Assembly: GCA_963969595.1 (NCBI GenBank)
Contig: OZ018408.1
Coordinates: 22,565,823-22,629,822, forward strand
DNA: 64,000 nt
Direction: 5' to 3'
Source: Neckera pumila
Lineage: Eukaryota; Streptophyta; Bryopsida; Hypnales; Neckeraceae
Shown one piece after another: positions 13,346 through 61,282 of the stretch; position 1 is the stretch's first letter, and the number at the start of each line of letters is the position of its first letter. The position numbers were made by a program, and so were the translations under genes. The notes beneath the pieces were generated by a model that saw only the letters and a program-made list of their open reading frames with translations, searched no databases and was not told where the DNA came from.

Positions 13346-13346
13346 C

Positions 13347-26250: not shown

Positions 26251-26919
26251 CACTACAAGAGAATGGGGTGTTTTAACCCCTAAAGGACCAAGGCCTTTTT
26301 TTTGCAAGAAAGCAATGAAAACTGCCATTTCTGCTGCGGGCAGCCCAGAAGCCTAAAAAAGAAAATGGAATGTAACCATTGGATCTTGTACTTTGCTTCT
26401 CTAAGATGACATGGTAAGAATTTCAGAGAATTTGACCGTACAGATTGAAAGTTATGAGCATTTGAAGTTGAAGAGAAAGTTTTTTTGCTTGATGCCCAAA
26501 AATGAAAGTTGCCGTTGACCATAGTTTTAGGAAAAAAGTGGGTCTGGACAAAGTCAAGTTCTTTTTCCTCTATAAAGTACATCATGTTAGGTACGTGTGG
26601 AAGAAATTTTAGATGCATTGGAGTGTTTCATCATAGAGAAAAAAAATTTGCAATAGAAGAAGGTGCTGAAAGTTGCCAATACACTAGTTGAAATTGAAAG
26701 CAATATGTAAATTTCAGATTTTCAAATTTATAAAATCCAAATGGTGAAAAGCAGCACATCTCTAAGATCTACAAGGTGGTCCAAAAAAACAGTTTTTTTT
26801 TTTTTTGGTGCTCTAAAAAAATAAAACATAGCAAGGCCAACTTTTACATAGGGCTGCTCCTAAATCAGGGGAGGGGCTTGATGGAGGGCGTGACCCGTCT
26901 TGTCTCCAAGACAATGGCA

Positions 26920-33250: not shown

Positions 33251-33577
33251 CCCCTCCTCCCCCACTTAGCACAAAAAACTTCATAACTTTTTGCCACAAG
33301 GTTCGAATGAAGAATTTTTTTTTCCCACATACATCTCTTGATTCTTCAACTTCACAAAAATTTTCAAAAAATATTCACAACTCAAACGCCCATAGGTACG
33401 TGCCCAAGACCCCATTTGTCCGTTGAACAGACACTTGGTCCTTTAGGGGTTAAGTGAATTTTAAGTATAGTCCTAGACATAAGGTTTTAAATAATGACCT
33501 TAAAGGTCATTATTTAAAATCTTATGGCTAGGACTATACTTAAAAACTCACTTAAATCACCCCACTCTCTTGTAGTG

Positions 33578-33824: not shown

Positions 33825-33867
33825 TAGAAATCACATTAGGAGATCAACGGCAAAGTTGATTTATGCC

Positions 33868-33888
33868 ATATTTAACTACTTTTGGACT
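33868..33888 (+). repeat. Left inverted repeat of the giant unit
   Basis: Begins ATATTTAACTACTTTTGG. Its exact reverse complement lies at 53297-53317, 19.4 kb away. The first palindrome copy follows about 40 bp inside. Confidence 0.6.
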
Positions 33889-33923
33889 TTAGGAGTAATT
33901 TTAGACTATGTCCTGGGAGATTT

Positions 33924-34279
33924 CATTGGGAGAGCTCCCGCTGTATTGGTTTTTGAGACCGCAATGGCTATGAAAGTGGGAACATTAGACTGAAGTAGAC
34001 CATGTTCTCACCCAAGAAGACGGCAAAGAAACATAAAAACTAAGATATTTCACGCATAGTACATTTATTATACATAAATGTACTGAATATAGAGAAGAGA
34101 GAGAGGTTCATCGGGAGAGGTGCCGCTATAGTGCAGATCCCAGACTTTGGGATCTTAAGTGTTGCAAGAAACCAAAGAAACCAAACATTGTTCAACTTAG
34201 AGTATTACAAAGACTAGTAAGTAGGCACTGACCCATTAGTATCTCCCTACAGAATAAGGATCCGTATATCTCCCGATGC
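33924..34279. repeat. Three palindrome copies at the left edge
   Basis: Variants at about 33924-33943 (GGGAGAGCTCCCGCTG), 34109-34129 (GGGAGAGGTGCCGCTA) and 34266-34279 (half site TATCTCCCGATG). They are more diverged than interior copies. Confidence 0.55.
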
Positions 34280-34504
34280 AATCCCCGCATATAAACTTAC
34301 GGTACAAGAGGACTGCTGGCTCGGTGGAATGAAACTTGAAAGTAAAGAAAAGGTGAAGAAGGTTCACCACATTTTATTAACACCGATAAAGAATGACACA
34401 GTGAAGAAGTTGCCCACGAAAAGAAAGAAAGGCAATTCCTATACTATCTAAACTACTGAACTTGACTAATGCGTTCCAAAATTCCCAACTATAAGTAGCT
34501 CCTT

Positions 34505-34954
34505 CTATATATACCATGCATCTTCTAACTTCAGGAGATCAATATCATCCCTCACGCATATGGAGGGACCTATCAAATGAGAACGTGGCCATTGAAGAAT
34601 ATCTATCTGAAGAACTACAATAGTTTGATTGAAAAAAATGCTGCGCAGTCTAGAGCTATTTAAGATCATGTTCACGAATGCCGCACGATGTGGATAAGGA
34701 TTATTCTTGTCAGGGTTGTTTGACCCGGCAAGATACTGAAACCCCTTCCAAATCTTTCGCGGGAAAAGACGTCGCATAAGCACCTCCAAAGTAGACAAAT
34801 GCATGGAGGAATACAACCCACAGTGAGCCCATTCAAGCAACTGACTAAGGAAGTCATGGAAACCAGAAGGAACGTTGATTATTTCAGGAAGATCCAAAAC
34901 ATCACCCTGAACGCATAAAGCACCTGTCAAAACAACCACAGCCGCCTTCTGCAT
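34505..34954 (-). pseudogene. Degenerate second FCP1/NIF-like HAD domain
   Basis: About 149 codons that align in outline with the HAD domain of the neighbouring gene: VVVLTGALC matches VVLDLNGVL, PSGFHDFLSQLLEWA matches RPGVMTFLNWLRCRA, and GLYSSMHLSTLEVLMRRLF matches AFWSSVNAKNMDNLLDIVL. The nucleophile Asp of the first HAD motif is absent and I do not see the later Asp-Asp motif. A splice acceptor (TTTATGCAG) precedes it. It is either a catalytically dead downstream exon of the minus-strand gene or a decayed duplicate. Function unknown. Confidence 0.45.
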
Positions 34955-35012
34955 AAACAGAACACTGCAAGGAGGTCAACTCGTCAGACAGAGGAGGACT
35001 AAACCCCAAAAG

Positions 35013-35090
35013 AACGGGAGATTTCCCGATGATATTCCGAAGGACACTCACTGTATTCAGAACTTCCAGTAAACGGGAGATATCTCGATC
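35013..35090. repeat. Two palindrome copies
   Basis: AACGGGAGATTTCCCGATG at 35013 and ACGGGAGATATCTCGAT at 35072. Both are variants of the element-wide palindrome. Confidence 0.6.
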
Positions 35091-35130
35091 AATTTAGAAC
35101 GGACAGTAATTTCATTGGAAGCCAGTAAAC

Positions 35131-35287
35131 CACGAGAGATATCCCGATGATATATTATCTCTCGTTGATATATTATATCCCGATGATATATTATCTCTCG
35201 TTGATATATTATATCCCGATGATATATTATCTCTCGTTGATATCCCGATGATATATTATATCCCGATGATATATTATCACTCGTTGA
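35131..35287. repeat. Tandem array of palindrome half-sites
   Basis: About 157 bp of alternating ATCCCGATGATATATT and ATCTCTCGTTGATATATT units with a roughly 20 bp spacing, about eight units. The minus-strand open frame across it (repeats of REIIYHRD) is a by-product of the repeat. It resembles a clustered protein-binding region more than a random satellite, because the unit is the same motif scattered singly elsewhere in the element. Confidence 0.75.
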
Positions 35288-36018
35288 ATTACGACAGGAT
35301 AGCCACTTCACTAAGAAACGCTGAACAACATAAGATCTCCCGGTCACCGTAAAAAAGACATTCACTTAATACAGACCTTGTAAATGCTAAGTCTGATCAG
35401 GTTCAAATAGACGATGAATTAGACGGAGAACCCCTGCGCAGCAGGAGACCTTCCAATCCTGTATAAATACATTCTTATAATCATGTCTAGAAACTATACA
35501 TCGATGACATGGACAATGACATGAAAGTCTGCCTATGATATTCTATGCGGTAAGGTAAGGAAGACGGAAATCAACAAGTACAAGAACAACAGGAACCTAC
35601 ATGTACATGATAGCGAGTCCATGCTAAAGAACACCGGGATAGCAAGAACTCCGCACATAAACAGTACTTGAAAAGCAAACATGCTAACTTTCTGATTAAA
35701 CTGGGTATAAATCAGAATCCACAAAGGAACCACAGACTCTAGTTGCATATGCAATGAACTGTAATGAAGTATCACTTCCCTCATGATCCAGTTTCATAAT
35801 GTCTTGACCAGTCGACAACTACAAGTTCAGGAAAATGTAAATGATCCAGAATTTACAATAATTTACAACAGCATTTACAATTAAAACTACAATTCATCCT
35901 TCGACAACTATAAAATATCATTCAATAAACTGTCGTCTACAGCAACGGGAAATCTCCCGATGAAGCCCCATGCCAACAGTAATCTATGACGCTGAATTCC
36001 GGTAGTGATTCCCCAGCC
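35288..36018. other. Non-coding part of the giant unit
   Basis: It contains a palindrome half at 35332-35343 and one full copy at 35943-35962 (ACGGGAAATCTCCCGATG). A minus-strand frame at 35533-35784 has no recognisable motif. Confidence 0.4.
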
Positions 36019-36662
36019 TTAAGTGGATTCGGGATCCACTGCAACTTGGCCGCCAGGAAGGGGATTTGCCTTCACATACACCGGTACCGTCTCATTTGAA
36101 AGAAGGAGGCCGTCAAGCCAAGGCATCAACTGCATGAGGAGGTAGTTCTCGAGCAGTTCACCGCGATAGGACTGCGGAAAAACAGCATTATGTGCATCGT
36201 TTAAGACGTTCTTTTCTGGACTGTCGTCAATTAGAAGAATATTATCCAATGTGGACAAACTAGCCATGTTCGCAAACGTCGTCAGATCCTTAAGGAAAAA
36301 CGGCTTATTTGGTGCAGATGGGGCTCTGTACGTGGACCTCGTGCATGCCCCTTGACACAGACAAATGACATCTCGACGGCTAAAGGAACAACCTGCCAGG
36401 ACAATGTCCAACAAATTGTCCATGTTCTTCGCATTAACACTACTCCAGAATGCAACATCCGCTCTACAACGCAGCCAATTTAAAAACGTCATGACCCCCG
36501 GGCGACGCTCAACATGAAGTCTATTATGGCCGTATGACCTGTGAAGAAGCACTCCATTTAAGTCAAGGACCACAGAATACTTTCGCTGAGCTACTTTTTC
36601 CAATGTGCTTGGCTGTGATGTCGAAGGTCCACCGCAAACTGCAGTGAATGAGGACAAATCCC
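36019..36662 (-). CDS. C-terminal exon: FCP1/NIF-like HAD phosphatase domain
   Basis: Last recognisable exon of the minus-strand gene, ending at TAA (36019-36021). HAD motif I reads VVLDLNGVLL, with nucleophile Asp codon at 36562-36564. The second acidic residue of the usual DxDx(T/V) signature is Asn (36556-36558). The DLNG form is familiar from plant NIF/FCP1-like proteins. Then come FWSSVNAKN (motif II region), a Lys in KPFFLKDL and the double Asp of LLIDDSPEKN (36223-36228), followed by AVFPQSYRG. The family dephosphorylates phosphoserine in proteins. The Asn may weaken catalysis. The acceptor is placed at a CTAAAG, but the frame to the previous exon does not join cleanly there, so the start of the exon is uncertain. 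Confidence 0.65.
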
Positions 36663-36764
36663 CTTTAGAAACAAGTGCATGAAGAAGATAAATCAAGATC
36701 AATCAAACGCACGGAACTATGCACGGTCTAAAATAAAGTACTTGTCAAAATGTCTTCTCCGAAC

Positions 36765-37660
36765 CTCGTCCCTTCTGATTCCACGACAGTCGCAGTCAAA
36801 CGACCCCTCTGTCCATCGGCCCCATTGTCTGATTCCAGCGTTCCACGGTCAGAGGCTATCTGAAAAATGTCGCGATAAAGAAATGAGTGCGCTTCCCACG
36901 CATTCGGTACCATGGACCGCCTGCTACTCGCCAAATGGCGCGTTTGTCTAGCATGAAAATCCGGCAAACACAATAGTTTCTCAAATCTACTCCGCATAGA
37001 AACCATGTCAGCATACGTATATCCCGAGTGTGGGACAACAACTAATGGATTCACCTTCGGATTAGCTGCATCAGGACTCATTTTTATGAGGTCCGCCATT
37101 GTATCCTCCATAATACTGTCCGGCATATCTACGCGCGGTGCAACATCAGGTGCCTCAGGCAACGGGAGATCTCCCAATGCAATAGTAATGGGCTCCTTCC
37201 CCTTTGACTCATGCGGGCCAAAAGTAGGAGCATGTTCATCCAGGATCGGGAGATCTCTCGTTGCTCCAAGGCCCCGCTCTGGCCTCGAAGGTATGTCACG
37301 TGAGGACTCTACGATGGGGGGCACTATGTCTTTGACTGCGTCCTTGGCAGGAGCAGCTCCACCCTCTACTAAACAGCTAACAAGAATGGACGCCGCCTTG
37401 GTCGCTTCAGGAGTCCCCGTCTCAGAAACATGTGGTTCCGACGGTGTAGGAGAGGACATATTGGGTCCCGCCTTAACTGCATCCTGCTCAGGGGCTTGCG
37501 TCGGATTACGCAACAGGACGATATCCAGCCTCCGCTTTGTTCTCAACTCATTGCGCGGAGCTGATTGGACCAGAACCACCGCAGAGTTTGAGCCCACCCT
37601 CGGCTTGATTGTGCCTATCTTCTTCGCCGACCGTCGCGCCACTCTTTGTGCGGACTCATC
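36765..37660 (-). CDS. Middle exon: low-complexity linker of the minus-strand gene
   Basis: About 299 codons from an acceptor TTACTGGCAG to a candidate donor GACGAG|GTTCGG. The product is Pro/Ser/Asp/Glu-rich and basic at its start (RRSAKKIGTIKPRV), with no known fold. Two copies of the element palindrome are translated here (37161-37180 and 37244-37264), giving LGDLPL and TRDLPI. The last part (MRSRFEKLLCLPDFHARQTR) looks helical. The entry junction to the previous exon is phase 0 and in frame. Confidence 0.55.
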
Positions 37661-37719
37661 CTGCCAGTAAAACACATAAGATGTTGTCAGCAGATGATTA
37701 TGCGCAATGCGGAACAGTC

Positions 37720-37740
37720 AGCGGGAGATCTCCCGATGAT
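37720..37740. repeat. Palindrome copy in intron 3
   Basis: AGCGGGAGATCTCCCGATG lies inside the 97 bp intron (37661-37757) of the minus-strand gene. Confidence 0.7.
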
Positions 37741-37757
37741 TAGGTACAATGACTGAC

Positions 37758-38174
37758 CTTTCTGCTTGGACCAGTCCCCACGTCATTGCTCACATGCTCC
37801 AAGTCTTTTGAGGCACGAGGGGTACTTGCGGTATTTTGTGGAGTACGAGTCTGAACTTCCTCTTCCTCGTGATCACTCTCTGTGCGAGAGGAAGTAACAT
37901 CCTTCTCCGAATCGTTGCCCTCCCGTTCCGCGTCGGTTTTAGGGGGTTGCTCGTCTGCTGCATCGTCCTCATCAGCTTCGTTGCCGTCTCCCGGTCCCTC
38001 CTCATCTTCCTCGTCTCCGTCTCCTCCACCTTCCTCATCTTCCTCTTCGTTCTTTTCCTCCTGAGGAACATAGCCTTTGGTATGAATCTGCTCCCATATC
38101 TGTCGAGCGACCAATATTGCCTTAGACTGTGCCTTGGAGTCATAAACAACTTCGATGACCTTGATTTCTTTTGC
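37758..38174 (-). CDS. Exon with acidic tract
   Basis: 139 codons between an acceptor GTGTCAG and a donor AAG|GTCAGT. It starts AKEIKVIEVVYDSKAQSK, continues with WEQIHTKGYVPQEE and then a long Glu/Asp/Gly tract (EDEEGGGDGDEEDEEGPGDG) and a Ser/Thr-rich end. It is likely disordered. Both junctions are phase 0 and give an open joined frame, which supports a real spliced gene. Confidence 0.6.
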
Positions 38175-38262
38175 CTGACACCATTGATGAAGCAAATTTT
38201 AGTGCGATGGACATTGACTGAATTGCGGAGAGAAATGCGGAAGAAAATAGAACGTGGCTTAC

Positions 38263-39603
38263 CAGTCCAAGAGAAGTGAAGTCCGGACTGCCATTCACGT
38301 TGACCATGATCATATTATCGGACATGTGTTTACGGAAAATGGCGATCGCTGAGGCAATTGAGAACCAAGGCATATTTGACCTCCTGTACAATGTGTCTAC
38401 TTCGTCCAGATCTCTGGAGAAATAGACAGCAGACATCTCGACAACGCTCGGGAAGAAATTGTGGAAGCTGCTCGTCGGACCGTGGTTCGGGTCGTAGGCA
38501 AAGAGCATGACCAGATATACAGTGTAATTTGATCCGGTAACTGGATGCGGGAAGCCATCCGCCTTGTCCGGAATGTAATGAACTACATGCCAGTCCCAGA
38601 GGCGGACTTTCATATCTTGCCGCTGCCTCTCCAGGTGTGCGAGAATAGCGTGCAACCCAGCACCATCCGTGATTAGAACTCCTGGGGAACGAGCTCTCAC
38701 AAGGCGTCGATCCGTATCCTTGTATTCGAGGGCATCGAATACCCGGCACAAATTCCGGTTCTCCAGAAATTTTGCACGAGCGTCGCCGCTGGTCATTTTG
38801 AAGAGAAACTAGAAGTACATGTGGGTCTTCGCTTCACCTCGCCATGCCTTTACGGAAGGTTCTGATAGAATCTTGCTGATGTCCTAGCATTTCTCGTCCA
38901 TGACTTTGCAGAGGTAATCTTTTTCGAAGTCCTCGGCAACCCATTTCTCGATCTCCTCTATATGGGCGTGCATGAAATTCTCCCACATCTTTGTCACCGC
39001 CTCTGGACAGTTCTTTGGATCGTGAGTTTTGTTCAAAGCCTTTGTACAACCCTCCAGCCACTCTAGCCCCAACTTGGTGGCCATGCTCTTATCCGTCCAC
39101 CACTCCACTTGCTCCCGGATGATCTTCTTCTCAGCCGCGAATGTATCCCACTCTTGTGCCGTGTAGGGAGAGTACTCTGGCTTCTTGCTCGGAAGGGGGT
39201 GCTGCCTGTAGTGGCACATGAGCTCGTTCTTCATGGCCCTTAGCTTCTTCTCCCGACCTGCTGCCACGACCATCGGAGTGACCGGCATTCCCATGATATC
39301 GAGATTGATAGCCGTTTTCTTCATGCAGACGATTCCCTCCTCCACCTGGCCAGCCAAGTAGTTTAAGTCCTCATCTCGCAATCCCCACAAGGGCTTGAAG
39401 TCCGAGTATGCCAGCGGCTTACGGATGCCCTTTGCTTTCGGTCCGTTACCGTCTGGAAGCTTTCTGCTTAGAAACTCCTTGTCAATCTGAATCCAGCGGT
39501 TGAAGTCCTCATCCTTCTCGATGAAGAGCAGCGGGATTTTTAAATCTGGGTTGTCTACATTCTTGAACCCAGTGAAGATTGAAGACATCACAGCATAGAA
39601 TCC
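38263..39603 (-). CDS. Large central exon with two in-frame TAG codons
   Basis: 447 codons between an acceptor TGATGCAG and a donor CTG|GTAAGC. Recognisable blocks: FYAVMSSIFTGFKN, a Trp-rich helical part (EVEEGIVCMKKT region, WDTFAAEKKIIREQVEWWTD), then AHIEEIEKWVAEDFEKDYL. After the first TAG (38884-38886) the same frame continues DISKILSEPSVKAWRG, then a second TAG (38809-38811), and then a conserved-looking region: VRLWDWHVVHYIP, YLVMLFAYDPNHG, SMPWFSIASAIAIFRKHM-like text. No other stop interrupts it. I do not recognise the fold. It lies directly after the ParB-like region in the same predicted protein. Confidence 0.55.
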
Positions 39604-39676
39604 CTGCATCACAACGCCGACATCGCGGGTTTTAATAGGAGTTCTCAGGAAATCCGCAGTTAATGAAACTACATAT

Positions 39677-39697
39677 CATCGGGATATTTCCCGTTGA
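39677..39697. repeat. Palindrome copy in intron 1
   Basis: ATCGGGATATTTCCCGTTGAT, a few tens of bases upstream of the splice acceptor of the central exon. Confidence 0.65.
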
Positions 39698-39809
39698 TGC
39701 TCTGATTGGAGGTTATGCTCTCAAGAAAGAGAAAAATTTTCACTCAAAGCCTTAGACAACTCAGTTCAGTTGATGGACATTTAGATCTCTCTCGACTAGT
39801 AGGAGGAAT

Positions 39810-40011
39810 ACCATGAGCCTGTATACATTGGGAGTTCTCTTGGTGGTGTATTCAACGGGAGATCTCCCGCTGATTTTAGGGAAGGGAGAACCATTATATA
39901 AGCATTGATTACCATGAGCCTATACACATTGCGACTTCTCTAGGTGGTGATTTCATTGGGAGATCTCTCGCTGATTTTCAGGAAGGGACAACTATCATAC
40001 AAGCATGGATT
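39810..40011. repeat. 101-bp tandem duplication containing the palindrome
   Basis: Two direct 101 bp units (39810-39910 and 39911-40011), each starting ACCATGAGCCT, each carrying one palindrome copy (39853-39873 and 39954-39974) followed by CTGATTTT(A/C)AGG and a closing GCAT(T/G)GATT. They lie in intron 1 of the minus-strand gene. Confidence 0.75.
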
Positions 40012-40035
40012 CTACTGTTGTTCCGTAACACTTAC

Positions 40036-41398
40036 GAGGTACGCTGCTGAGTGCGCTCGTCCTCCATATGACAGGTGAGGGGACCCCATGTCTTTCCACT
40101 TTACTCTAGCGTGCGCAAGCTGCTGTGCGAATCTTTGCTCCTTCTGCTCACCAGCGAGGTTCTGGTTGAGGGCTCTTGAGAGGTGAACGATGTCATTCTT
40201 TTTGGTCTCATATGACGCCCAAATGGGAATGATGTTGAACGTTGAAGCGTCGGCCTTATCGGCCTCACTGATATTGTTATTCTCCACCAAATCCTTATGC
40301 GCTGCAACAGTATGCTGACCACTAATAATGTAGTAGTGCAATTTGGTGGTCATGCTCTCCTTCTTTGGACAGTTCATCCAGAACTCTACCAAGTTCTCCG
40401 GTCCGTATGGTCCTCTCTTTAAAGGCAGAACGGTAATGTATCGGTTCTCCGAGTGGAAATCGTTATCCACGAGAACCTTGTTCTTAATTCCTTTGAGCCG
40501 ACCCTGGTCAATTGCTCTGTATACGAGATCCCCGGCAGTAGCTTTGTGAAGGAACTTGTAGTGCACACGCAGGAGTTCACCTTTGGCATTCGCTAGTGGC
40601 TTCCTGTCCCATTTGTACATTGGCTTAAAAACTTGATTGTTAGAGCTTGTTAATTTCCTTAATTTCACCAGGCTCGAGCTTGCTGACCTCAACCTCTATC
40701 ATGTTCACCGCCTGGGCAATAGTCAGCGGGGAGGCCTTCTTCTTCTTTTTACCCTTGCCCTTTGCATCTGCTTCTTCCACAATCTCATCCCCTGGTCCAC
40801 CCGCTATGGCTTTCCTCTTCTTCTGCTTCTTCTGAGTAGAAGGCGTTGAAGCTGTAGCAACTACGGGCACTATAGAAGTATTGGACTCGCCACGGCTGTC
40901 GTCTATAACGACCCACTCGTTGGCTATCTCCGTTGGTGTCCAGGAATGTGATCCGTCTGGCTTGTCTAGAAATCCTTTTACTGTCATTGTCTCACAAATC
41001 TGTGGATCCATAGTGGCGTAGTCCAGGATCAAGCCGTATGTTCTCGCTTCCTGCTTTTTGGGCACTATTTCCCGAACAATGGCGAGGACGGTACAGTTGT
41101 CGAGTCCTTGCAGCTCCAAGACGTCTAACCCAGTTGTCGTGTGACCCTTGCCATCGAAAGATAGCTTAGGACATATGATCGTTGCTGCTCCTGCTTGGTC
41201 TGTCCACTCAAGGCCCCACGCTGTTACTTTTCGGCAGCAACGAAACACAACTCCGGGAATGTTGTCACCGATGTACTGGAACGCATGCACCACTGAGTCG
41301 ATGAACTTGTATAGCCTGATGGGTGACAATTCGGGAGGCAGTTCGTTCGATGTATTCGCTCTGTGCAATGCCACATGATTGTCAGGCGGCCGATTCAT
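40036..41398 (-). CDS. First coding exon with ParB/Srx-like GQH region
   Basis: ATG at 41398 opens about 250 codons with a structured N-terminal half (YKFIDSVVHAFQYIGDNIPG, VTAWGLEWTDQ, VLAIVREIVPKK) and then a Lys-rich basic patch (AKGKGKKKKKASPL, a possible nuclear signal). Near 40645-40655 the frame shifts by one base. In the new frame there is SNNQVFKPMYKWDRKPL, then YYIISGQHTVAAHKDL (about 40290-40335). GxH/GQH followed by A-x-x-K resembles the signature of ParB/sulfiredoxin-fold proteins (GxHRxxA). RALNQNLAGEQKEQRFAQQL follows. The exon ends at donor CTC|GTAAGT. The ParB-like reading rests on this motif alone. The frameshift or an unusual tiny intron means this copy may be inactive. Confidence 0.5.
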
Positions 41399-41937
41399 GC
41401 TTGCACCTGTTAGTTTTCATCGGGATTAATCCCGTTGATAGTCCTTGCCGTCGGACTCTACATCGTTCCTTGACTGCATCCGTTCACCATATTTAATGGG
41501 AGATCTCCCGATGATTCTTGTTATTGGATGACGGCTGAATCAGCAACTTTCTTATGACACTGATCTCTCTTTTGCTATTGCACTATTTATTATTTTTGCA
41601 AAAAATCAACGGGAAATCTCCCGTTGATTTCCTATTTTTACAGACCATTCTCAATTTACAGTGCATACTATACTGTCGACAGAAACCGTAGGATCCTTGA
41701 GTTGCGGTTCAACTTCAATGTGGTCATTCCACTTCCTCATTTCCTTGAGCACTTTAGTTAGAATCTACTATGATTATCGGAAGAATTCCCGCTGTTTTTT
41801 ATCGGTAGATCTCCCGCTGTTTTTTGGTTCGTTGTTTCGCTTTCTGCTCTATGATTTCCCATTCGATTGCGCGGTTATAGGGCATTTTCAAATTTCTACG
41901 TGTACTCTGGACTACTGTGCTTACTATAGTGAATTAC
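41399..41937. other. 5' flank of the minus-strand gene with five palindromes
   Basis: Copies at about 41418-41439, 41495-41515, 41606-41628, 41775-41795 and 41800-41820. A CTAACAG acceptor-like site just before the ATG suggests a 5' untranslated intron. The density of sites immediately upstream of the start codon makes a regulatory role plausible. Confidence 0.5.
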
Positions 41938-42204
41938 AAACAAACAAACAAACAAACGACCACAATAACAAGCAACAAACACAAACAACCACAACATTAA
42001 ACAACTAGTACACCGCTGACAAATACAAAAATCGTTGAGGAACAAACAACCACAAAAACGCAATCAAACAATCATACAACCACAGTAACAACCACAGAAA
42101 CAACCACAAAAACGCAAACAACCACAAAAACGCAATGAAACAAACATACAACCATAGTATCGACCACAGAAACAACCAGCAAACAAAAACAACCACAAAA
42201 CATT
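41938..42204. repeat. CAACCACAA low-complexity tract
   Basis: Degenerate repeats of ACAACCACAAAAACGCAA and similar over about 265 bp. The plus strand is almost free of T and G. A second tract of the same composition lies at 42684-42866. Open frames on the complementary strand (Val/Cys/Leu/Phe-rich) are artefacts of this composition. Confidence 0.65.
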
Positions 42205-42263
42205 AGGAAAAAGTTGAACCCTAGAAGAGGCCGTGAGACCTGAGAACGCAGGGAACGCAAGCC

Positions 42264-42304
42264 AAAAAAAAAAAAAAAAAAAATTTTTTTTTTTTTTTTT
42301 TTTT
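42264..42304. repeat. Poly(A)/poly(T) junction
   Basis: A run of about 19 A followed directly by about 21 T, a simple inverted repeat that could extrude as a hairpin. An AT-only simple repeat (TTATTATTTTT units) follows at about 42475-42600. Confidence 0.6.
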
Positions 42305-42683
42305 CTTTGCGACAGCGAACTGCAGACGCGGAATAGCGCGGAACAGCAGGGAACAGTGTAGCTGAACTGCTTAAAAAAACATTAAATTTTTTTTTTATTA
42401 AAATAAATTCAAAATTACAAAATTTTCAGATCTGACATGGCACTACACATGCCATGTCAGACTGCAATCATTACAATTTTTATTATTTTATTATTTTTTA
42501 TTATTTTTTATTATTTTTTATTATTTTTTATTAATATTTTATTAATATTTTAATATTTTTTATTTTTTAAATATTTTTTAAATATTTTTTAATTGTAAAT
42601 CACTGTTGAGTTCCCTTGAGTTCCCTGGAGGGGAGGCTTACACTACGAAGCAGCCCCTTCCAGGGTTCATTTTTTTCCTAATG

Positions 42684-42866
42684 ACACAAACAACCACGAA
42701 ATTGCAATCACAGAAAAAACAACAAAAGCGATAACAACCACAGATTGAAACAACAAGCAACCATAAAAACAAGCACAAAAACAACCATGAAAACAACAAC
42801 CACAATATAACAAACAAACAACTACAAAAACGCTCACAAATAAACAACAGACAACCACAAATTAAA
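42684..42866. repeat. Second CAACCACAA tract
   Basis: Same composition as 41938-42204, including AACAACCACAA and ACAAACAAC units. Confidence 0.6.
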
Positions 42867-44488
42867 CAATTAACATAATCTTACGAGTCATTCCAGAATG
42901 CTTCGGTTACTTCGGTTGCCGATGATGTTGCCATGAGGATCTCCTCGTGCCGCCAGAAGATGGTGCTACTCGTCGAGAAGGACCCCCCCGCCTCGTTTTT
43001 CGTTGTTCACTACTTCCTGCACAGTCCAAAGTTTGGCTTAACACACGTTGAATAACCCCTCCAAAATACACCCCACACACATCCCTACACACCGCGCACA
43101 AAGCTACCCATACCACGCACAGGTTTCAGCATAGCACGAACAGGTTTGAAACGCACACAACGGACAGATACCTAACCCATAACACACACCCAAAATTCAA
43201 ATTTTGACCGCCACAGCATCAACCCTGTCATTCAACCAGAGTTCATCTCAATTGAACTATGACCTCGTAAATCGTTGTCTTACAAAAGACAAAAACGAAG
43301 AAAACACTCCAGTCTCAACTGCGCTGCAATTGACGTAATTTCTCGCTGCCAATTTCTTGCTCCACCTCTACTTCAAAAAAAAACAAATATCCGAGGCAGA
43401 AGAAGATGCAATGCTCCCAATGTGCAAAAGACATTACATTGCTAGACGACTGTCAGTATCGGTACTGCTTGACCAGTTACTCAATAAAAGATTACTGAAC
43501 TGACTTAAAACCTAGTTATCTTTTTAGTGCAGAGCAAGCCAACATCCCTTCAGACATCTCATGACATCGCGTCTCTGATTTTTGTAGTGAGTGCCTCACA
43601 CAGACAACCTGCTTGTTCAAAATTACAATCTGCTCCTACAACGCATAAATGGAGTGCTCATACCTTGCGGGCGCGCGGAACTCTCCAACTCCACGACGGC
43701 AGCAGGGTGTCAATGCAAGGTGGCCGCGCCCCAACTCCGATATCGGAGGACAGAACTAGCGCGTAGCGGGCCGGACTCAGGGTGCCTGCGACAATGCCTA
43801 AGCGGGTGAAACTCCAGGGTGGCTGCGACGCCTAGACGCGAACACCCACAAGATCCTCCGCAAAGCCTCTGAACCGCGCAAAACTGTCAATCGGTATCGC
43901 GTCAAACCGCTGTCGCAAAACAATGAGAACAATTGCCACCGCGCGAGCCGCTCACGTTGCAACGGGAGAAAACAATGACGGCGCTTCGTGGGAGAGCATG
44001 GGAGGAGGACCCTGAGCAACGGGAGAAGGCAACAGGGCGCGGCAATGATGGCGCGCCGCCTGCAGGGGGGCTGCTCTGACAAGGTGGGATGAATTGACCT
44101 CGGGCAATCTGGGGTCATCATGAATGGGATCCTACTTACTATGTAAGTAGGGGGTAATAAGCTGAAATTACTGCGAGGGGGTGGGGGGGTAATCTCATAC
44201 GTGGCAAAATCATGTAGCCATTTGGGGATGGAAAGAGTTTTCATCTACGAGTTCATTCAAATCTAATGATTTCATTTCAATTTTGTTCATTACTAGCTAT
44301 CACTTGATACCGACATTGTCATTTTTTTACCCCCAAAAAAGTTAAAAAATAAATAGTAAGTTCTAAACGTTCACCAATAGATGAAATTTTGTTGCCCAAA
44401 AAAAAAAGGTAATATAGTGAAGTTACTGCGAGGGGATGAAATACCCTAAAATAGGTAGGGGCTCCAGTCATCACGTTTTCTACAACCT
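42867..44488. other. Central region with a GC-rich block
   Basis: About 43640-44250 is GC- and CpG-rich compared with its flanks and has open frames on both strands without recognisable motifs. It may contain the promoter or first untranslated exons of the minus-strand gene. No palindromes were noticed here. Confidence 0.35.
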
Positions 44489-45500
44489 TTAACCCCTAAA
44501 TGCCCAAGGCACGCAATTTGGGTGTCCACAATATTCAAAAGTTAAATTAAAATCTAGCAAACCTACTATTCTTAGTAGTTTCTATTTTTTGAATATTCTT
44601 TGTAGAAGTCTACTTTTAGCATCAAAAACCTAATATGAAAAATGCAATCCATATTTTTTATTTTCTGATTTGAGATTTTGTACGAGGGTGTCCACTGCAA
44701 TTTGCAAATGAAAATTAAGCGTTTTCCTCTTCAAAATTTTTTTCCTAAATTATTAGCTCAAATTTCTGATTTAAAGAATAAAAAATCTAAATCCAAACTG
44801 CAGCCAATCATTTTTAGTTACAGAGATTCAAAGCCAAGAATTCTAGTCATTACAAGTGAGTCAATTGCAAAAGTACTTGGTTTCTTCCCACTAAATGCAC
44901 ATGTCTTGCAATCTATATGGTCAAAGTTTCAAAGAATTCTTTGACACATTCTTAACCCCTAAGTGCTCGAGTGACCATTTTATGGTCGTTGTTTGACTTT
45001 AGGCCAAATTTTCGGCCAAAAAAAAAACTTTGTTTCAACTTTTTTTTTTTTTCCTCCAAAATATTGGGTTGTTTGACAATATTTATACTCAAAATTCAGA
45101 TCGCTACGATCAAACAAAAATTATATTAAGAGAAAAAGCACAAAGTGTACAGTTTTGCCTAGTGTTGAAAAACTTACTATTTGGAGAAAGTATTGGTGTT
45201 ATCATTATTAGATCTCATGCATTTTTACACAAACCAATAGAAACCACAATTTTGACCAATCAAAAAAAAATTCAAATGCTAAAAATAGAAATTGTATTTT
45301 TGGTGAATTTTTGAAGTTATATCTTCAAAATTCATTTAAAAATAATCTAAAAGTCAGTTTATAATTTTGACCGTACAGATGCTTTCTATTTTTTGTGCTT
45401 CACATTATCTTCTTTGATGCAAACTTCAAAAAAGTTTTAGAACTTATATTTTATAACACGTTTGTATTTTGTCCAAACCCCTTGGACTTTTAGGGGTTAA
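44489..45500. mobile_element. piggyBac-like element(s), possibly nested
   Basis: A left end TTAACCCCTAAATGCCCAAG at 44489 and a second left end TTAACCCCTAAGTGCTCG at 44952 are followed by one right end (CTTTTAGGGGTTAA) at 45500. Either one element spans 44489-45500 (1012 bp) or a 549 bp element (44952-45500) abuts a fragment. The interior is AT-rich and non-coding. It is a different subfamily from the ~930 bp copies. Confidence 0.6.
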
Positions 45501-46178
45501 AGAAGTCTAGTATAAGATCCTATTGCTAGAGTGCCAAAAAAATAATTTCTTATGTTCAGGGTCTCTTTGCTATAGACATGGCAAGTTAAGAATGGTTTTG
45601 ACAGAAAACGCCCTTCGTCTTCTAGGGTTTAAAGTGAAGAAAACAAGTTTCGCAGCACCTTCTATGACTACTATTTTTCACTTTCAATGTTCTTAACTTT
45701 ATATTCTTACATCCAAGCTTTTGCATTGAGAACTTTTCATATGGTCTGAAATTGAGTTTTGAATGTAGAACTGGAAATGTAGGGAAAAAGCACATCATTT
45801 CTATCATCCATGGAAGGGGTCATGAAAGGTGTGTCCAAGATAATTGAACAAAAAAATAACTCATTAACAACTCTAAGATAGAATTGAATGAAGGAAATTG
45901 CAACGGTGAGATTGTTCTACCAAGCATATCTGACAAAGTCATTAATTATTTCTTGAGAAATTGTAATATGGATTGCATTTGAAAATGAATCGTACAAGTT
46001 AATTTTTTCTAAGACATGTGTAGATGACCCCCCCCCCAAAAAAAAAACTACAAACTCCTCATATTAATCCAAATGCAATGCATCAAGGCTTCCATGTACA
46101 CAAAAACGTAATCTTCTAGAAAACAAATTTAGAAAATTATTTTTAAATTCACTTTATATTAATTTCTTACATAACCTT
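45501..46178. other. AT-rich interval inside the giant unit
   Basis: No gene or palindrome recognised. Some text (about 45610-45730 and 45895-46130) resembles internal parts of the TTAA-bounded elements, so this may be another decayed copy. Confidence 0.35.
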
Positions 46179-46330
46179 GAGCCGTGAACCCTAAGCCGTA
46201 AACCCTTCTTTTGGATAACACAAAACCCAAACCCAGAACCCCTAAACCCTTTTTAGTAGCCAAAAATTGGAGATAGTTTCCTTAACAAAAGATTAAAGCT
46301 TATTTAAAAGAAAAAGAACCCTAAACCGAA
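46179..46330. repeat. Degenerate telomere-like repeats
   Basis: Scattered AACCCTAAG, GTAAACCC, AAACCCAAACCC and CCCCTAAACCC units, then GAACCCTAAACCG near 46317. These are decayed CCCTAAA-type plant telomere repeats in the same orientation as the cluster at 46701. Confidence 0.55.
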
Positions 46331-46700
46331 AATGGAATTACATGTAGTTCATCTCTATAAACGAATATATGTATTTGCCTTTAAAAATAATAGAAAAGAT
46401 AGATTACAATGCTATACTTATTATTAGGTACTATAGAACTTTATAACAAAGAAAAGGTTTTTAATTTCTTTTTTCTTTTGGCCCAACCAACCACCCTCTA
46501 AGCTTGTACTAAGTATATCAAAAGGGAGTACTGAAGGCTTCAATATAATAGAAATTATATCGAGCAGTGTACCAACCGTGAATTAGTAGGATTTATGGTA
46601 TAAAGTTCAGCAAATCCACTTAGCAACACATCGAGTACATTTACAGTTGCTTTGAAAAAGCTAAAAAACCTCCATTTTCAAGTCAGTGAACAAAAATCTG

Positions 46701-46753
46701 TAACCCCAAACCCCAAATCCTAAACCCTAAACCCTAAACCCTAAACCCTAAAC
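46701..46753. repeat. Interstitial telomeric repeat (CCCTAAA)n
   Basis: Two degenerate CCCCAAA units lead into at least four perfect CCCTAAA units ending at 46753, directly joined to the interior of a piggyBac-like element. CCCTAAA is the canonical plant telomere repeat. Confidence 0.85.
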
Positions 46754-47635
46754 TGCCATTTCTAGTACAAGTACCAAATTTTTGAAAAATATCATTTTTT
46801 GACACATGTAACCGTAGGATCTTGAATTACTCTAATTTGAGAATATGTGGAAAAATATTCAGAAATTTTCACCGTGTAGATTGCACGATAATAGCATTTG
46901 AAGTGGCAAAAATCCTTTTTTGACCACTGCGAAAATCCGGGCAGCTGCACTTCACAAGGTCAGATCGTTATGAAAAAATGTCCAAAATGGTTGTGCTTCT
47001 TTTATTTCATTCATTAGGGCAAGTTGGCTACATACATAAAAAAGTTCAGATCATTTGGAGTTGTGCAACATATAGGAAGAAAATAGTAAGTAGAAAGAGT
47101 AGAGAATCATTCAAAATACTAAATTGTTAATAAATAAGTTATAAAATTAAAAAATTCCAATCCAAATGGTTGAATTGTTATTATAAACAATCTACATCCA
47201 ATAGCATTATTTTTTTTCAAAAATATTGAAATTTCAGTAAAATAAAGGACTTCAAAGTTATTTTTGGTGTAGGAATTCCATAACTGCCCGCAAACTAAAA
47301 AGCCTCATAACTTTTTTTTTCAACTATTGAAATGCAATGATTCAAAGCTTTTTGAGTACATATAAATCTGAAGAACAAATTTCAAATTTTATTTTTATTT
47401 AAAAGTGTTTTTTTCAGGTCTGTCCAAACTGCCCGAGTTGAAAAAAAAGTAACATATTATGCAATAACTTTTTACTCATATTTTAGAACGTCATGAAATT
47501 TGTGCATATGAAAGATATTTCTAGTACCCACATTGTATTAAAATTCCAGCCCAAAATATGCAAAGCTCCACTCTCACGTACCTGCCCAAAAAAGTTATAA
47601 GTCGGTCAAACGCAGTCCGGTCCTTTAGGAGTTAA
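46754..47635. mobile_element. 5'-truncated piggyBac-like element joined to telomeric repeat
   Basis: Begins with the family-internal text ACTGCCATTTCTAGTACAAG, which in intact copies lies about 50 bp inside the left end, and runs to a normal right end GGTCCTTTAGGAGTTAA (TTAA 47632-47635). The missing terminus is replaced by (CCCTAAA)n. Confidence 0.75.
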
Positions 47636-48689
47636 TGTGGAGTCCTGATCCCAAGAAATGCCAATCCCGCAGCTTCAACGGATCCTCTACAGCGATGATG
47701 AATGTTGCACAGTTGTTGAATCTGAATGAGATTCGAATTCAAAGACCGCACGTTTCCCTTTGCTAAACTCAAAGGCCTCGAATTTCGTGTAGAGGCACTC
47801 ACGCGCGGCATTTCTGCATTCAATAAATTGGAATGAACAAGAATGCAGTCAACATTCCATAATAATGACCGCATCTCAAGATTCTGCCTGGACACAATAG
47901 TGCACGGCTTTGAAGAGTGCACGTGTAGGTGGATCCTGTCCAAGTGAAAGCGGGAAACTGGAGCTCCCACGTCTAGCCCAATATTGCGAATCCTCTGCTG
48001 TATTTTCTCCCTTTTCGCCGGCAGGAGTTCACGTGAGTGAGGAATGCCAATCGAGGAGCGTGGACACGGAGCTCTTGAGAAGTGACAGCGCTTGTGGGTC
48101 GTCGGGAGCTTGGCGATCCGTCGCGGTCCTTCATTTCTTCTCTAGGTATGAATTGCTTGAATCCCTACTTCCTCAAGTGCAGATCATCCAGAGCAGTTCA
48201 GTGGTTCGTGGGCAGTAGTGAATTTGTGAAGGAATAGTAACGAGGCAATTGATAGCAGCAGTGACGAAGGGCCGGAAGGTCGACTTCTACAATTAACTAA
48301 ATCCGTTCGCAAATCAGGATTTGTTAGTTTGATCTATGAACAACAGTAGCGTATCGCATGAGTGCTGTTTGGTGAATTTGGATTAGTGTGCGCCATCTTG
48401 AAGTAGTACAGCGTACTACCGTTTGCTTCGTCTTGGCATACTGCTGTAAGCGGCACTGCGCAGATCACTAGCAATGGCAGTTTCGAATGATAGTTTCTGA
48501 TGTGATGATTGGCCTTAGTCACTGCGTCAATGGACCAATAGACAAATTTATAAACCGTGACATTGTAGACATCATCCTCCCGTATAGTATGCGTCCGTAG
48601 ACTACGAGTATACACAATGTACGTAGTCAATGCTGTATATGTACGCCGGGATGCTCCGGCATCTGATGATCTCCTTTCTCTCGTTTATT
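47636..48689. other. Upstream region of the plus-strand gene
   Basis: Mixed composition and no recognisable protein. It may hold promoter and untranslated exons of the gene starting at 49088. Confidence 0.3.
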
Positions 48690-48837
48690 TCATCGGGAGA
48701 TCTCCCGCTGTTTTCAGCAGGAGAAATCCCGCTGTTTTCATCGGGAGATCTCCCGCTGTTTCCATCCGGAGATTTCCCGCTGTTTCCATCGGGAGATTTC
48801 CCGTTGTTGCCATCGGGAGATTTCCCGTTGTTTTTAT
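48690..48837. repeat. Tandem array of six palindromes
   Basis: Six units of about 24-25 bp, each CATCGGGAGATCTCCCGCTG or a close variant (GGAGAAATCCCGC, GGAGATTTCCCGT) followed by TTTTC or TTTCC. It lies about 250 bp upstream of the predicted start of the transposase-like gene, suggesting an operator-like or maintenance role. Confidence 0.8.
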
Positions 48838-49087
48838 GAGCTGCCCTGAGTTGGTCAGTGTGGGACATTATACATGATAGGAGCTACCCTTAACCTTAGT
48901 CCACCGCAAGCGGAGTTGCAATCCTCCCAAATGATTGAGTCAGGTGATAAATGAGCACATCAATCCTTGCTGTCGGCGTCGTGTGCGTAGTACATTTTTG
49001 ACTTATATTCTGATATTCTTGTCTCCAGGATCACTCTTCATTCCCTGGTTCTACTTTATTGCTTCTGGCTCCAGAGAGTTAGTGACA

Positions 49088-50368
49088 ATGGATTCTTACT
49101 CTGACTTGTTTCGGGATCCCATAACGCCTTACGTTGGCGAGTCTGCTGAGGATGCGGACTCTCAAGAATCTACTGCACGGAGTGCTGCGCTGAACGATGG
49201 TGATTTAGTGAGGCTCTATCTCCCAGGATTTGGCAAAGTTGGAGTGGGATGCGTTGTAGAGGCCCGTCCTCAAGGTCAGTGGTTGGGTGTTCCGATTCCT
49301 TTCGAGCCCTGGATATTTGTTCTGGTAAGGCCTTCATTGGTCGTCCTAGAAGCTCAGCATATGAGGGTATCTCCTTGCCAGAGAGGCTTGCAGACGCTTG
49401 GAGATGTTCTAAACAGGACCGTGTTGTGGAGGGCAGCCGACGTGGTAAAGGTCATTGCGGATCCCCATGCGGATGAAAGCCCATTCGTTCGTCAGGAGGA
49501 TTGGATCGGGCTAGAGGTGCATCACCTTGATTCATTAGGTGTCCTTCAATCTTCAGGTCGAATTACTTGCTAGAAGGCGGATGATTATTTTCAGAGTTCT
49601 ACCCTCGGTGAGGACCACGTAGGCGTGACTGTCCTTGATGTTTTCGTGGGAAATCCAGATACGATTATGACTCATGCTCGCTAGCCCATTTCAAATTGTT
49701 GGTTCCCTGGTGGTCGGTGCTTGAAGGATATAGTTGACCACTTCTCTGCTTTTGTTGTTGAACCAGATCCACTCGCCTACTTGGGTGGAAGACAGAAGGC
49801 ACCCTATCGCTTCATAGTTTGTCGACCCTCTCTCAGTGAGAAGGAGACACAGTTCACGCGGAAGACATCGGATGACGAGATTCAACAGGTCAGCTCAAAG
49901 CGATGCTGCGACAGGAATTGCTGCCAATTTTTCCACCGTGAAACGACGCTGAAGGTCAGGCAGAGATACTTTTCAAAATCCTTTGAAGAGCGTCGGGAGT
50001 ATGGAATCGCTGTAGGTGGACAATTGCATTCGGTGCAGTGGACACGGAAGCGGAAGTACATTACTCTAGAAGAAGCAGAAGTTTGTGCCACAGCGTGGTA
50101 CATTATACATGGAATTCCAAAGTCAACCTTTCACAATTACCTTGACAAGTACAAGGAAGGGATTGTTTCTTCCACACACGGGAACAAAGGGGTTAAGCGG
50201 CCTCGACTTCAGACTGTGCAGGTTACTGGTACAATGAAGGCGATAATCGAAAATACTGCTGACCAGATGCCGCACCAAATGCGGTGCATTGGAAATGGGA
50301 GAGTAGACACGCTTAAGTTCATGCCTGCTGGTAATAATTGGAAGCGCGTTCACGCTGACGCCAATGAG
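49088..50368 (+). CDS. DUF7869-type transposase-like gene, exon 1
   Basis: ATG at 49088 begins MDSYSDLFRDPITPYVGE. 427 codons end at a donor GAG|GTAGGG. Two TAG codons interrupt the frame (49571-49573, codon 162; 49682-49684, codon 199) but coding character continues in the same frame. The second half has KRCCDRNCCQFFHRETTLK, a Cys-rich element, then a basic helical region (VRQRYFSKSFEERREYG), a pattern I associate with the N-terminal part of DUF7869-domain proteins. An in-frame ORF extends upstream to 48935, but an acceptor-like TCTCCAG at about 49028 makes 49088 the safer start. Predicted role: DNA recognition domain of a mobile-element recombinase. Confidence 0.6.
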
Positions 50369-50689
50369 GTAGGGCGATGAACCCGTCAGTATTCTGGTTT
50401 TGATCACTGATGCTTTGTTTGGACTCCGGTAGTCATCGGGAAATCTCCCGTTGATACTCTTATACGGCCTTCTGTTTGTTTGTTCCCCCTTTGGAGAATC
50501 TTCCAGACACAGTACTCCATGGAGATTTTATTTTCTTGCTTCTTTCATTGGGAGATCTCCCGATGCGTTTCACTGTAGGAGTTGAATGCATTCATCTACT
50601 CAGCGGGAGATCTCCCGATGTTTTTCTGCGGATTTGACTGTGCTCATTGCAGCTGGTCTATTTGCTTGTGTGTATTTTTGAATGCTCAG
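50369..50689 (+). other. Intron of the transposase-like gene with three palindromes
   Basis: GT at 50369 and AG at 50688-50689; removal keeps the frame at phase 0. It carries palindrome copies at about 50433-50455, 50545-50567 and 50601-50621. Confidence 0.65.
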
Positions 50690-52666
50690 AGTGGTACTGC
50701 CGTCGGTGCTGATGCTTGTGTTTTTAGTAATTTGCAGTTGAATGTGGAGTATGGCCTTCCTCCCGTGAGCCAGACGACTATTAATAGAATAAAGAAAGAG
50801 CTATTTAACAACGTCGCGGTTAAGCCTGTTGGGAGCTCTTTTGCGAAGTGTACGGTGTGCGACGACCTACAGCAGTTCATTCAGAAATCACCAAAAGGAA
50901 GCTCGGACTTCGTGGAGTTTATGAAGCAACGAACTGAACATCTTAATCATCAAGCATCGTGCCGTCGTCTGTATGCCTCGTGGCGTGAGGAGTCCAAAAG
51001 GAATCCTCAAGAGATTTTGTGCATTATTCACGACAAAATGGACACGAGGAAGACGGCTCTCCCACGAATGCGCGTGACGACGAAGGCCACACAAGGTTTG
51101 GGTCAGCTTCCTATGAGTATAACTGGAATGGTGGCTCATGGTCATGCCGATGGTGCGTATGCACATTATGCACCAGCGTGCTGGCCGGGCGATTCGAACT
51201 TTACCATTTCATCGCTTGCTAGACTATTAAGGCGACTTGAAGGTCCACCAATTCGGGAGACGGGCGACTTCTTTCCCTATCCGCCGGCAAATGCAATGTT
51301 CAACGCGCTACTCAAAGGAAAATCTCGGTGTATGGACGCCTTGAAGTTGATTCCGTAGGAACTTCGTCGTGGATCTCGTCCCCTTCCTAGCAAGCTCTAT
51401 CTTCAGCTTGACAACTCCGCGAAGGATAATAAAAACCAATACCTCATGGCCTTCTTGTCTTTGCTTACTGCACGTGGAGTCTTCATGGAAATTCAGGTCG
51501 GTTTCCTACTAGTCGGACATACTCACGAAGATATTGATGCGTATTTTAGCCACCTATCGAAGGCTTTAAAGAGCAAGAATACATTTGTTGTCGCCGACCT
51601 CATGAAGTCGTTCATGGAGTCCCAGGAATTGTCATTCATGCCGGAGTTCATCCAGGAGGTGGCAGATTTCAAGTCCTTTGTGAAGGGATTCCTGTGCAGT
51701 GGCACGTCTAAACTAATTGGTTTGGGGGAGATGCACCTTTTCCGGTTCTATGTGGACAGTGATGGAATCCTTGTTATGAAGTACAAGAAGTCTGCAGTTG
51801 ATTCACAGTGGCTACCATCTGATACTCCTTCTCGATGCCTTTGGAAGAAAGACTGCATGGGTCGGGTGACACTCCCTCGAGGTTGCCCTAGGCCTGTTCC
51901 TTTCAAGCCTATGTGGGGTAACGAAGTTCCGGAAGCCATAGGAAATCAAGAGAAGGCGGTGGAGGCGGCACGGAAAGCGACCTTAAGCAAGGGCTTGATT
52001 CTGTTAGGAATTGAGAAGTACATTGAGTATTGGCAAAACGGAATGTCCAAATGCAAGGGATTTGCGGCCACCTTCGCACCATACGTTGATTACTGGAAAT
52101 GTGTGTTGCGAGAGCTCAAGGAGCCTCTTCCCGACTTTGTTCCGGAATTGGTTGAAGGCTTCTGGCCACAGTATGATTGGAGATTGCGGGAATCTTCTTG
52201 CCAGCGGCCGACCATCAACCCTGTCGACATGGTTCCTGAAGAAGAGGAATTTGAACCTTATTGCGGACCCGCAAATGAAGCGCCAAGGGAAAGCTTTAAT
52301 CCTTGGGTTGATATTCGCCCAGATTCATGGCTTCTGCTTAGACCTGAGGACCCCTCAGTATGTGCTGTCTGGCAAGGAAGAGCACTATCTGACGTCTGCA
52401 GAGAGGAAGGGCATGAAAACAATGGGAAGTTTATGCTTCAGTATTGGAGACCAGATAATTCCGAAAGTAACTTGGAATTGATGTACCAGAATTGTTGGTA
52501 TGGGAAATGGGTTGTGGAGAACAGGCCTCCCACTTGGGTGGACGCATCTTGTGCATTGTACGCCAATTGGTCCAAGAAAGTGAACCCAAAATCTCGTACT
52601 ATTCCTAAGAAAAGTAGAGAAGCTGTCCTAGCGAATTTGAATAGGGCAAACGAGGTGGACCCCTGA
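50690..52666 (+). CDS. DUF7869-type transposase-like gene, exon 2 (DDE core)
   Basis: 659 codons ending at TGA 52664. One TAG (51356-51358, codon 650 of the joined frame) interrupts it, and the next in-frame residues ELRRGSRPLPSKLYLQLDN are clearly coding. Three acidic sites look like an RNase H-fold DDE triad: D542 in IIHDKMDTRKTALPR, D668 in LQLDNSAKDNKN and E707 in VGHTHEDIDAYFS. A CTVC element (putative zinc ligands) lies before the core. The last ~350 residues are conserved-looking with many Trp/Pro. From memory, proteins with the LQLDN...NKN and GHTHEDID pattern form the DUF7869 family. A catalytic transposase role is inferred from the triad and context. Confidence 0.65.
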
Positions 52667-53296
52667 TCGACTAACGTCTCGTCGCCCACCACGACTATCG
52701 GACGGGAGATTTCCCGATGCTTTTTTTTATTCAATGTAACCGTGGCAGGGTTATCGGGAGATCTCCCGATGGTGTCTTTGTTTCGGCTTCATAATGGCAC
52801 CATTTCTTTCTTTGGTCACTACAGTAGTTCTCAATGTCTTTTCAAAAGTTACTAGTGGTGGTAGTGGAAGCTGATGTGAGTAGGATGGAGTTATTTTATC
52901 ACAATTTATCAGAATGTGCGGTTTTTGTTATTTCTTGAGGGTACCTTCCAAATCCCATGTCGTAGTCGTAGCAAATGTCCACGCTCTGTGTCCTTTGCTA
53001 TTCTTTCTTTTCTTGTATTCGATCTCCTTTGGGATTTTTATAATGTTGCAAGCGATTTTTTTCCTTGCCACTTATTGTTCTCAATATTCATCTCCACTTC
53101 CCACCTTGGGAACCTGCATTCGAACTTGTAGCATCATTCGGAGTTTATATTGTCCCTGACATACAAGTTTGAATGCAATTGACCTCTTGGGGTTTCTAAA
53201 GCATACTTAGGAAAATGAACTTGAAGGTATCTGGATATCTCCCGGTGTAATGCCTAGCACCATGCATCGGGAGATTTTTAATTTTGGACTTTGAAT
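52667..53296. other. 3' flank and right edge of the giant unit
   Basis: Non-coding. Palindromes at about 52700-52720 (ACGGGAGATTTCCCGATG), 52751-52772 (ATCGGGAGATCTCCCGATGG), 53230-53248 (half-degenerate) and 53261-53280 (half site GCATCGGGAGATTTTT). Confidence 0.5.
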
Positions 53297-53317
53297 AGTC
53301 CAAAAGTAGTTAAATAT
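53297..53317 (-). repeat. Right inverted repeat of the giant unit
   Basis: Exact reverse complement of 33868-33888. On the plus strand it reads AGTCCAAAAGTAGTTAAAT and onward. It sits just outside the last palindrome half site. Confidence 0.6.
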
Positions 53318-53361
53318 TGCATATTTGTCAAGATTCTCTCCTACCAAAAAAAATTCCCTAG

Positions 53362-60222: not shown

Positions 60223-60242
60223 GCACCAACCTCCTTTAGGGG

Positions 60243-61167: not shown

Positions 61168-61282
61168 ACGATGGACTAAAATATGGCTAAAATATGCATA
61201 AATAGCTTGGCACAAAGTCTACAATCTAGACACCAGGGGTAGGTTGGACAATAGCTCCATGACAAGATTCGTATAATGTGCC
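61168..61282. other. Degenerate upstream part of the Helitron helicase
   Basis: An IAP-like codon triplet (near 61254) where helicases of this family have LAP suggests that helicase coding once continued upstream but is broken. Confidence 0.25.

Follow-up and report, generated by a model that had tools for sequence, protein, structure and literature searches.

A probable giant DUF7869-family DNA transposon with dispersed palindromes in the moss Neckera pumila

In the 64,000-nucleotide stretch of the Neckera pumila genome analyzed here (contig OZ018408.1, positions 22,565,823 to 22,629,822; hereafter, the window), two genes and many copies of a short palindrome lie between the two halves of a terminal inverted repeat (Table 1). 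The genes are divergent and both contain introns in the gene models, in agreement with the two opposed spliced genes of a first-pass annotation made from the sequence alone. The right gene encodes a protein of the DUF7869 family, and the left gene encodes a protein with an acidic tract and a C-terminal domain of the NIF/FCP1 type. The span between the ends is 19,460 bp, and the analysis covers this one copy of the element, within the window.

The right gene matches the Pfam family PF25273 (DUF7869) over 51,359-52,663, with a score of 130.3 bits (cut-off 26; E 8.5e-38), and its protein displays the RNase H-like catalytic fold expected of DDE transposases. In the candidate acidic triad, D241 and D281 are invariant and D115 is nearly so among 69 relatives, and the three residues sit near the expected strands and helix of the DDE fold. 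The identification of this gene as a DDE-type recombinase, at first a resemblance noted in the first-pass annotation, is supported by both family and fold. The nearest named relatives of the right protein are moss proteins, namely, P0006 from Physcomitrium patens (UniRef A0A2K1KXP1) and P0007 and P0009 from Ceratodon purpureus, all of the same clade, with 51-54% identity over the core, and annotated only as hypothetical or DUF7869 proteins. A tblastn search of the window with the protein P0001 gives a match at 68.6% over P0001 residues 12-661. Three scans of viral contigs, with proteins or an alignment as queries, found no relatives. The gene for P0009 is named M758_UG068900 and is located on a 112-Mb record; the UG tag, from the name only, suggests that this is the female (U) sex chromosome.

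The perfect 21-bp inverted repeat seen in the first pass is present at 33,868-33,888 and 53,297-53,317 and is enclosed in a 27-nt inverted repeat with 96% identity. With up to 5 mismatches allowed, the inner 21 nt of this repeat occur nowhere else in the window; for the 26-nt end at 8 mismatches, there are three further matches in the window, which look like chance. The ends of the element are set at 33,863 and 53,322 because the flank alignments meet there at the junction of a related, uninterrupted repeat (see below), so that the end repeat announced in the first pass stands but its edges, 33,825 and 53,361, are displaced inward by 38 and 39 bases, respectively. Longer end repeats reaching out to 33,825 and 53,361, proposed on the basis of a loose similarity of the outer flanks, were rejected, given that the repeat at 10.46-11.37 kb continues across these flanks; among direct repeats of 5-12 bases around these outer edges, none is longer than 6 bases. 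The termini of the element are ATGC, and they are bordered by a pair of ATTT tetranucleotides, and an agreement of 4 bp at any one of three symmetric offsets would arise by chance with a probability of 1.7%.

An empty site is found within the same window. The right flank of the element belongs to a repeat family that is also represented at 10.46-11.37 kb, on the opposite strand, and the left flank aligns to that repeat up to base 11,162, where the right flank resumes at 11,158. When the left flank is compared with the 300 bp adjoining the junction, the score is 73, against a maximum of 48 among 768 control segments. With a longer stretch of the repeat as the target, 6 of 770 controls score at least 73, but none of these ends at the junction and all come from two other places, 23.6-24.5 kb and 25.8-26.4 kb of the window. 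In a looser control that retains the family members, segments score up to 198, and 200 shuffles of the left flank score at most 44. Because the related repeat runs through the insertion point, everything between the ends was inserted as a single unit. One mobile unit is thus supported by the sole pair of ends, the direct repeat of 4 bp and this empty site, for which the first-pass annotation had proposed a search. Stretches resembling the invaded repeat are located at 10,461-11,371, 23,551-24,469 and 25,801-26,419.

The length of this unit requires a correction. A 3,147-bp block flanked by TTAA is nested in the element, carries CCCCTAA-type ends of a kind found 12 times in the window, and matches 18.5-21.8 kb and 60.2-61.2 kb of the window. 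Its GC fraction is 0.31, compared with 0.46-0.47 in the other parts of the element, and it holds none of the palindromes. The block at 44,489-47,635 is outside the original element, which without it is about 16.3 kb long; thus, the ~19.5 kb mobile unit of the first pass remains a single unit, with about 3.15 kb of its length contributed by a nested repeat.

The palindrome is 18-20 bp long, with the fuller consensus CANCGGGAGATCTCCCGNTG. At up to 3 mismatches, it has 25 matches in the window (none in 100 shuffles), all within the ends of the element; at up to 5 mismatches, the number of non-overlapping matches rises to 33, again with all 33 inside the ends, as the first-pass claim of a palindrome scattered only between the edges would have it. 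The distribution within the element is far from even. With the nested block set aside, 51% of the element is non-coding, and this portion contains 23 of the 25 palindromes (p 1.5e-5 for the excess), the other two being in left-gene coding exons; with the arrays collapsed, 18 of 20 are non-coding (p 2.9e-4), and the density is highest in the introns. Beyond the window, a palindrome scan of viral contigs matched 2 stretches, and a scan of prokaryote genomes matched 6 bacterial or archaeal records, with approximately 4 estimated by chance in 257 billion bases.

Table 1. Features of the element and of the related repeat (positions in the window)
Feature	Position	Strand	Details or basis
Left target-site duplication, ATTT	33,859-33,862		identical 4 bp at right end
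Left terminal inverted repeat, 26 nt	33,863-33,888	+	matches right end 25/26
Tandem 36-bp units with half-palindromes	35,139-35,287		downstream of left gene
Left gene	36,019-41,398	-	five exons; gene model
Left-gene exons, approximate	41,398-40,036; 39,668-38,263; 38,174-37,758; 37,660-36,742; 36,638-36,019	-	exon 1/2 junction approximate
Last exon, NIF/FCP1-like HAD domain	36,019-36,638	-	PF03031 match
Exon with acidic tract	37,758-38,174	-	translation
Two tandem 101-bp units, palindrome in each	39,805-40,011		first intron of left gene
Conserved region with putative ParB-like motif YYIISGQHTVAAH	40,036-40,665	-	alignment with P0071 and P0072
Nested TTAA-flanked repeat block, later arrival	44,489-47,635		ends TTAACCCCTAA / TTAGGAGTTAA
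Tandem array, 24-bp unit bearing palindrome	48,688-48,834	+	upstream of right gene
Right gene, DUF7869 DDE-type transposase	49,088-52,666	+	exons 49,088-50,368 and 50,690-52,666; gene model
Right terminal inverted repeat, 26 nt	53,297-53,322	-	matches left end 25/26
Right target-site duplication, ATTT	53,323-53,326		identical 4 bp at left end
Palindrome starts (range 33,925-53,246), left part	33925, 34260, 35013, 35072, 35944, 37161, 37245, 37720, 39678, 39854, 39955, 41495, 41608, 41801		
Palindrome starts, right part	48692, 48740, 48764, 48788, 48812, 50435, 50547, 50602, 52701, 52753, 53229		
Related repeat, uninterrupted at insertion point (empty site)	10,461-11,371	-	flank alignments

The last exon of the left gene matches PF03031 (NIF) with 52.3 bits (cut-off 21.8; E 7e-14), along with a match of the gene to TIGR02251 at 4.3e-08, under the curated cut-off of that model. 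The FCP1-like HAD domain and the acidic tract listed in the first pass are accordingly both present, the latter in the translation. In FCP1/NIF phosphatases of the HAD class, the catalytic motif is DxDx, whereas HAD motif I of the left protein reads DLNGVL, with the second Asp replaced by Asn. Sequence look-ups in PDB for the HAD part returned nothing at the thresholds used, and when pieces of the left gene and its relatives were scanned, NIF was the sole Pfam match at E 0.1 or better. The whole left protein as a query found no relatives among 5,970 candidates; a shorter query found three, P0070, P0071 and P0072 (67, 70 and 55% identity), which align over exons 1-2 only and largely keep the motif YYIISGQHTVAAH. 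Within this protein, the sequence GQH, in hydrophobic surroundings, is a motif that we take to be ParB-like, a label that no family match backs. This part of the first-pass description could not be confirmed, as Pfam contains no ParB family matching the left-gene region or its relatives at E up to 10, a negative limited by the HMMER filters that discard most weak matches; a structure model of the region failed to fold confidently (predicted local distance difference test score, pLDDT, 36.8). Two PDB profile matches, to BEFA (3e-4) and to a putative lipoprotein (0.004), were discounted because the profiles consist of three rows. A tblastn search of phages with P0071 gave no match, and no entry of a viral fold library matched at E 0.001 or below.

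This copy of the element is now inactive, with neither gene intact. The two genes together contain five in-frame TAG codons, at 49,571, 49,682 and 51,356 in the right gene and at 38,886 and 38,811 in the left gene, as well as one frameshift, near 40,640-40,665 in the left gene; their terminal stops are TGA and TAA. All five internal stops being TAG, an alternative genetic code with recoded TAG was considered. However, by eye, P0070 carries tryptophan (W) at both left-gene TAG sites, and P0006, P0007 and P0009 carry W at the second right-gene site, so that recoding was rejected, because W (TGG) and glutamine (Q; CAG) ancestors fit deamination. C-to-T changes in the CHG context on one strand or the other can account for all five TAGs, with a chance of about 0.005 under equal rates per site, in a post hoc test that assumes two ancestral codons. 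Such a pattern of stops fits the strong CHG methylation of moss transposons, put at about 80% for P. patens in PMC9994747.

The explanation that we prefer, with a probability of roughly 60%, is that we see here a single, inactive copy of a giant DUF7869-family cut-and-paste DNA transposon, with an accessory protein that would bind the palindromes. Because of the family of the transposase, the ends and the duplication, the DUF7869 protein is the presumed agent that cut and joined the ends, with a 4-bp stagger. The palindromes, probably multiplied in part through tandem duplication, would be bound by the accessory (left) protein or, less likely, by the transposase, and this binding would mark the DNA of the element and keep its expression up against host methylation, as VANC does for VANDAL. 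A binding protein encoded by the element is favored because the pattern of the palindromes matches that of the VANC21 targets in VANDAL21, which PMC5735166 describes as a short motif that is located in non-coding parts, introns among them, and amplified through tandem repetition. The motif of the present element is similarly dense, non-coding and partly tandem, but it differs in being an 18-20 bp palindrome; furthermore, the transposase matches DUF7869 only and is not Mutator-like, and the target duplication is 4 bp, compared with the 7-12 bp given for Mutator elements in PMC10741241. An anti-silencing purpose of the binding, drawn by analogy with VANC, is possible, although the odds are somewhat against it. 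A more detailed version of this mechanism, in which the accessory protein, by virtue of its ParB-like motif, acidic tract and FCP1-type domain, would load on the palindromes, recruit or modify the transcription machinery and so keep the element active despite CHG methylation, is rather doubtful; FCP1-type phosphatases act on the tail of RNA polymerase II. The present copy would have been silenced later and then decayed, its stops resembling the products of deamination at CHG methylation sites.

The main competing explanation, itself improbable but the best placed among the rivals, is that the transposase itself binds the palindromes, which would be subterminal repeats for end recognition and synapsis rather than for anti-silencing, as in CACTA elements. 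The CACTA (En/Spm) elements have CACTA termini, a 3-bp duplication and repeated short subterminal motifs. The likeness is in the repeated short motifs near both ends of the present element, where the outermost palindromes lie 62 bases (33,925) inward of the left end and 76 bases (53,229-53,246) inward of the right one; however, the majority are remote from both ends, in introns and in the DNA that separates the genes, two even occupy coding exons of the left gene, and the termini (ATGC), the 4-bp duplication and the spread of the motifs throughout the element are all unlike CACTA.

A somewhat less probable alternative, which we consider unlikely, is that the left protein is related, in degenerate form, to the algal accessory proteins that combine ParB and DNA methyltransferase and that it marks the DNA of the element. 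The same layout exists in the 21.5-kb Sola1 element of Ectocarpus (Sola1-1_Ec32), in which, according to PMC12477816, the accessory gene lies opposite the transposase and is said to encode ParB-like and methyltransferase domains; the GQH motif of the left protein, in its hydrophobic context, points the same way. Against this, searches of Pfam, PHROGs, NCBIfam and the sequences in PDB matched no ParB or methyltransferase family at the thresholds applied, and a degenerate methyltransferase domain, a candidate prompted by the Ectocarpus paper and a glycine-rich stretch, was rejected when no library supported it. The present element has a giant size, a 4-bp duplication and a second gene on the opposite strand in common with Sola, in particular Sola1-1_Ec32, but differs in the FCP1/NIF domain and in that no methyltransferase domain was found. 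According to PMC10741241, Sola elements are found in Physcomitrella, duplicate 4 bp of the target and may be longer than 15 kb, and on these published features the present element may be of the Sola type; the 4-bp duplication, seen here as ATTT with an empty site, is by itself a weak criterion. The first-pass annotation knew of no described plant element of this kind, and 'DUF7869' matched no paper in the literature collection searched, but giant algal transposons in which an accessory gene with ParB likeness faces the transposase gene are already published (PMC12477816).

Less probable still is that the palindromes have no function and multiplied within the element as small mobile or gene-converting repeats. 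The many near-identical copies, some of them in tandem, are compatible with such spread, although none of the 33 copies is outside the element while the flanks are rich in other repeats; that 10 of the 18 positions vary in at most one of the 25 copies also speaks against it, with little weight because the copies were chosen by likeness to the consensus. Finally, it is very improbable that the genes come from two separate, unrelated elements or loci that happen to be neighbors, with end repeats paired by chance: the nested repeats partly fill the middle and could hide inner ends, but the inner 21 nt occur at the two ends only (at up to 5 mismatches), the empty site unites the two flanks, and the same palindrome is found on either side of the nested block.

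Through the ends, the target duplication and the empty site, DUF7869, a family without a function name, becomes tied to transposition. If a protein of the element itself binds the palindromes, the element would provide a second example, unrelated to the first, of sequence-specific self-recognition by a plant transposon, in a lineage with strong CHG methylation of transposons; an address code read by the accessory protein, if real, would amount to an independent invention of the role of VANC in VANDAL elements.

Several other repeats were observed in and around the element. The TTAA-flanked family to which the nested block belongs includes 18,535-21,765, 26,273, 33,443, 44,489-47,635 and 60,236-61,168, with the aligned pieces roughly 66-84% alike, and these repeats with CCCCTAA-type ends are probably non-autonomous piggyBac-like elements. 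A transposase fragment of the family PF13843, which we take to be linked to piggyBac, at 28,158-28,820 on the minus strand (E 2e-35) is a possible source for them. Inside the nested block, a short run of AACCCTA units, similar to plant telomeres, spans 46,702-46,753. A foldback piece at 42,201-42,683, with 31-nt arms (87%) and located between CAACCACAAA-type simple repeats, is probably another later arrival in the element. Seven weak matches to microRNA-precursor families at 3,710-14,826, all far under the gathering scores, at which Rfam yields no match, are probably foldback repeats as well. Directly to the left of the element, at 33,459-33,545, there is a 43-nt inverted repeat (95%) with a 1-nt loop. 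On the far right of the window, a Pif1-type helicase fragment (61,277-61,918, plus strand; PF21530, E 1.4e-17) is perhaps derived from a Helitron.

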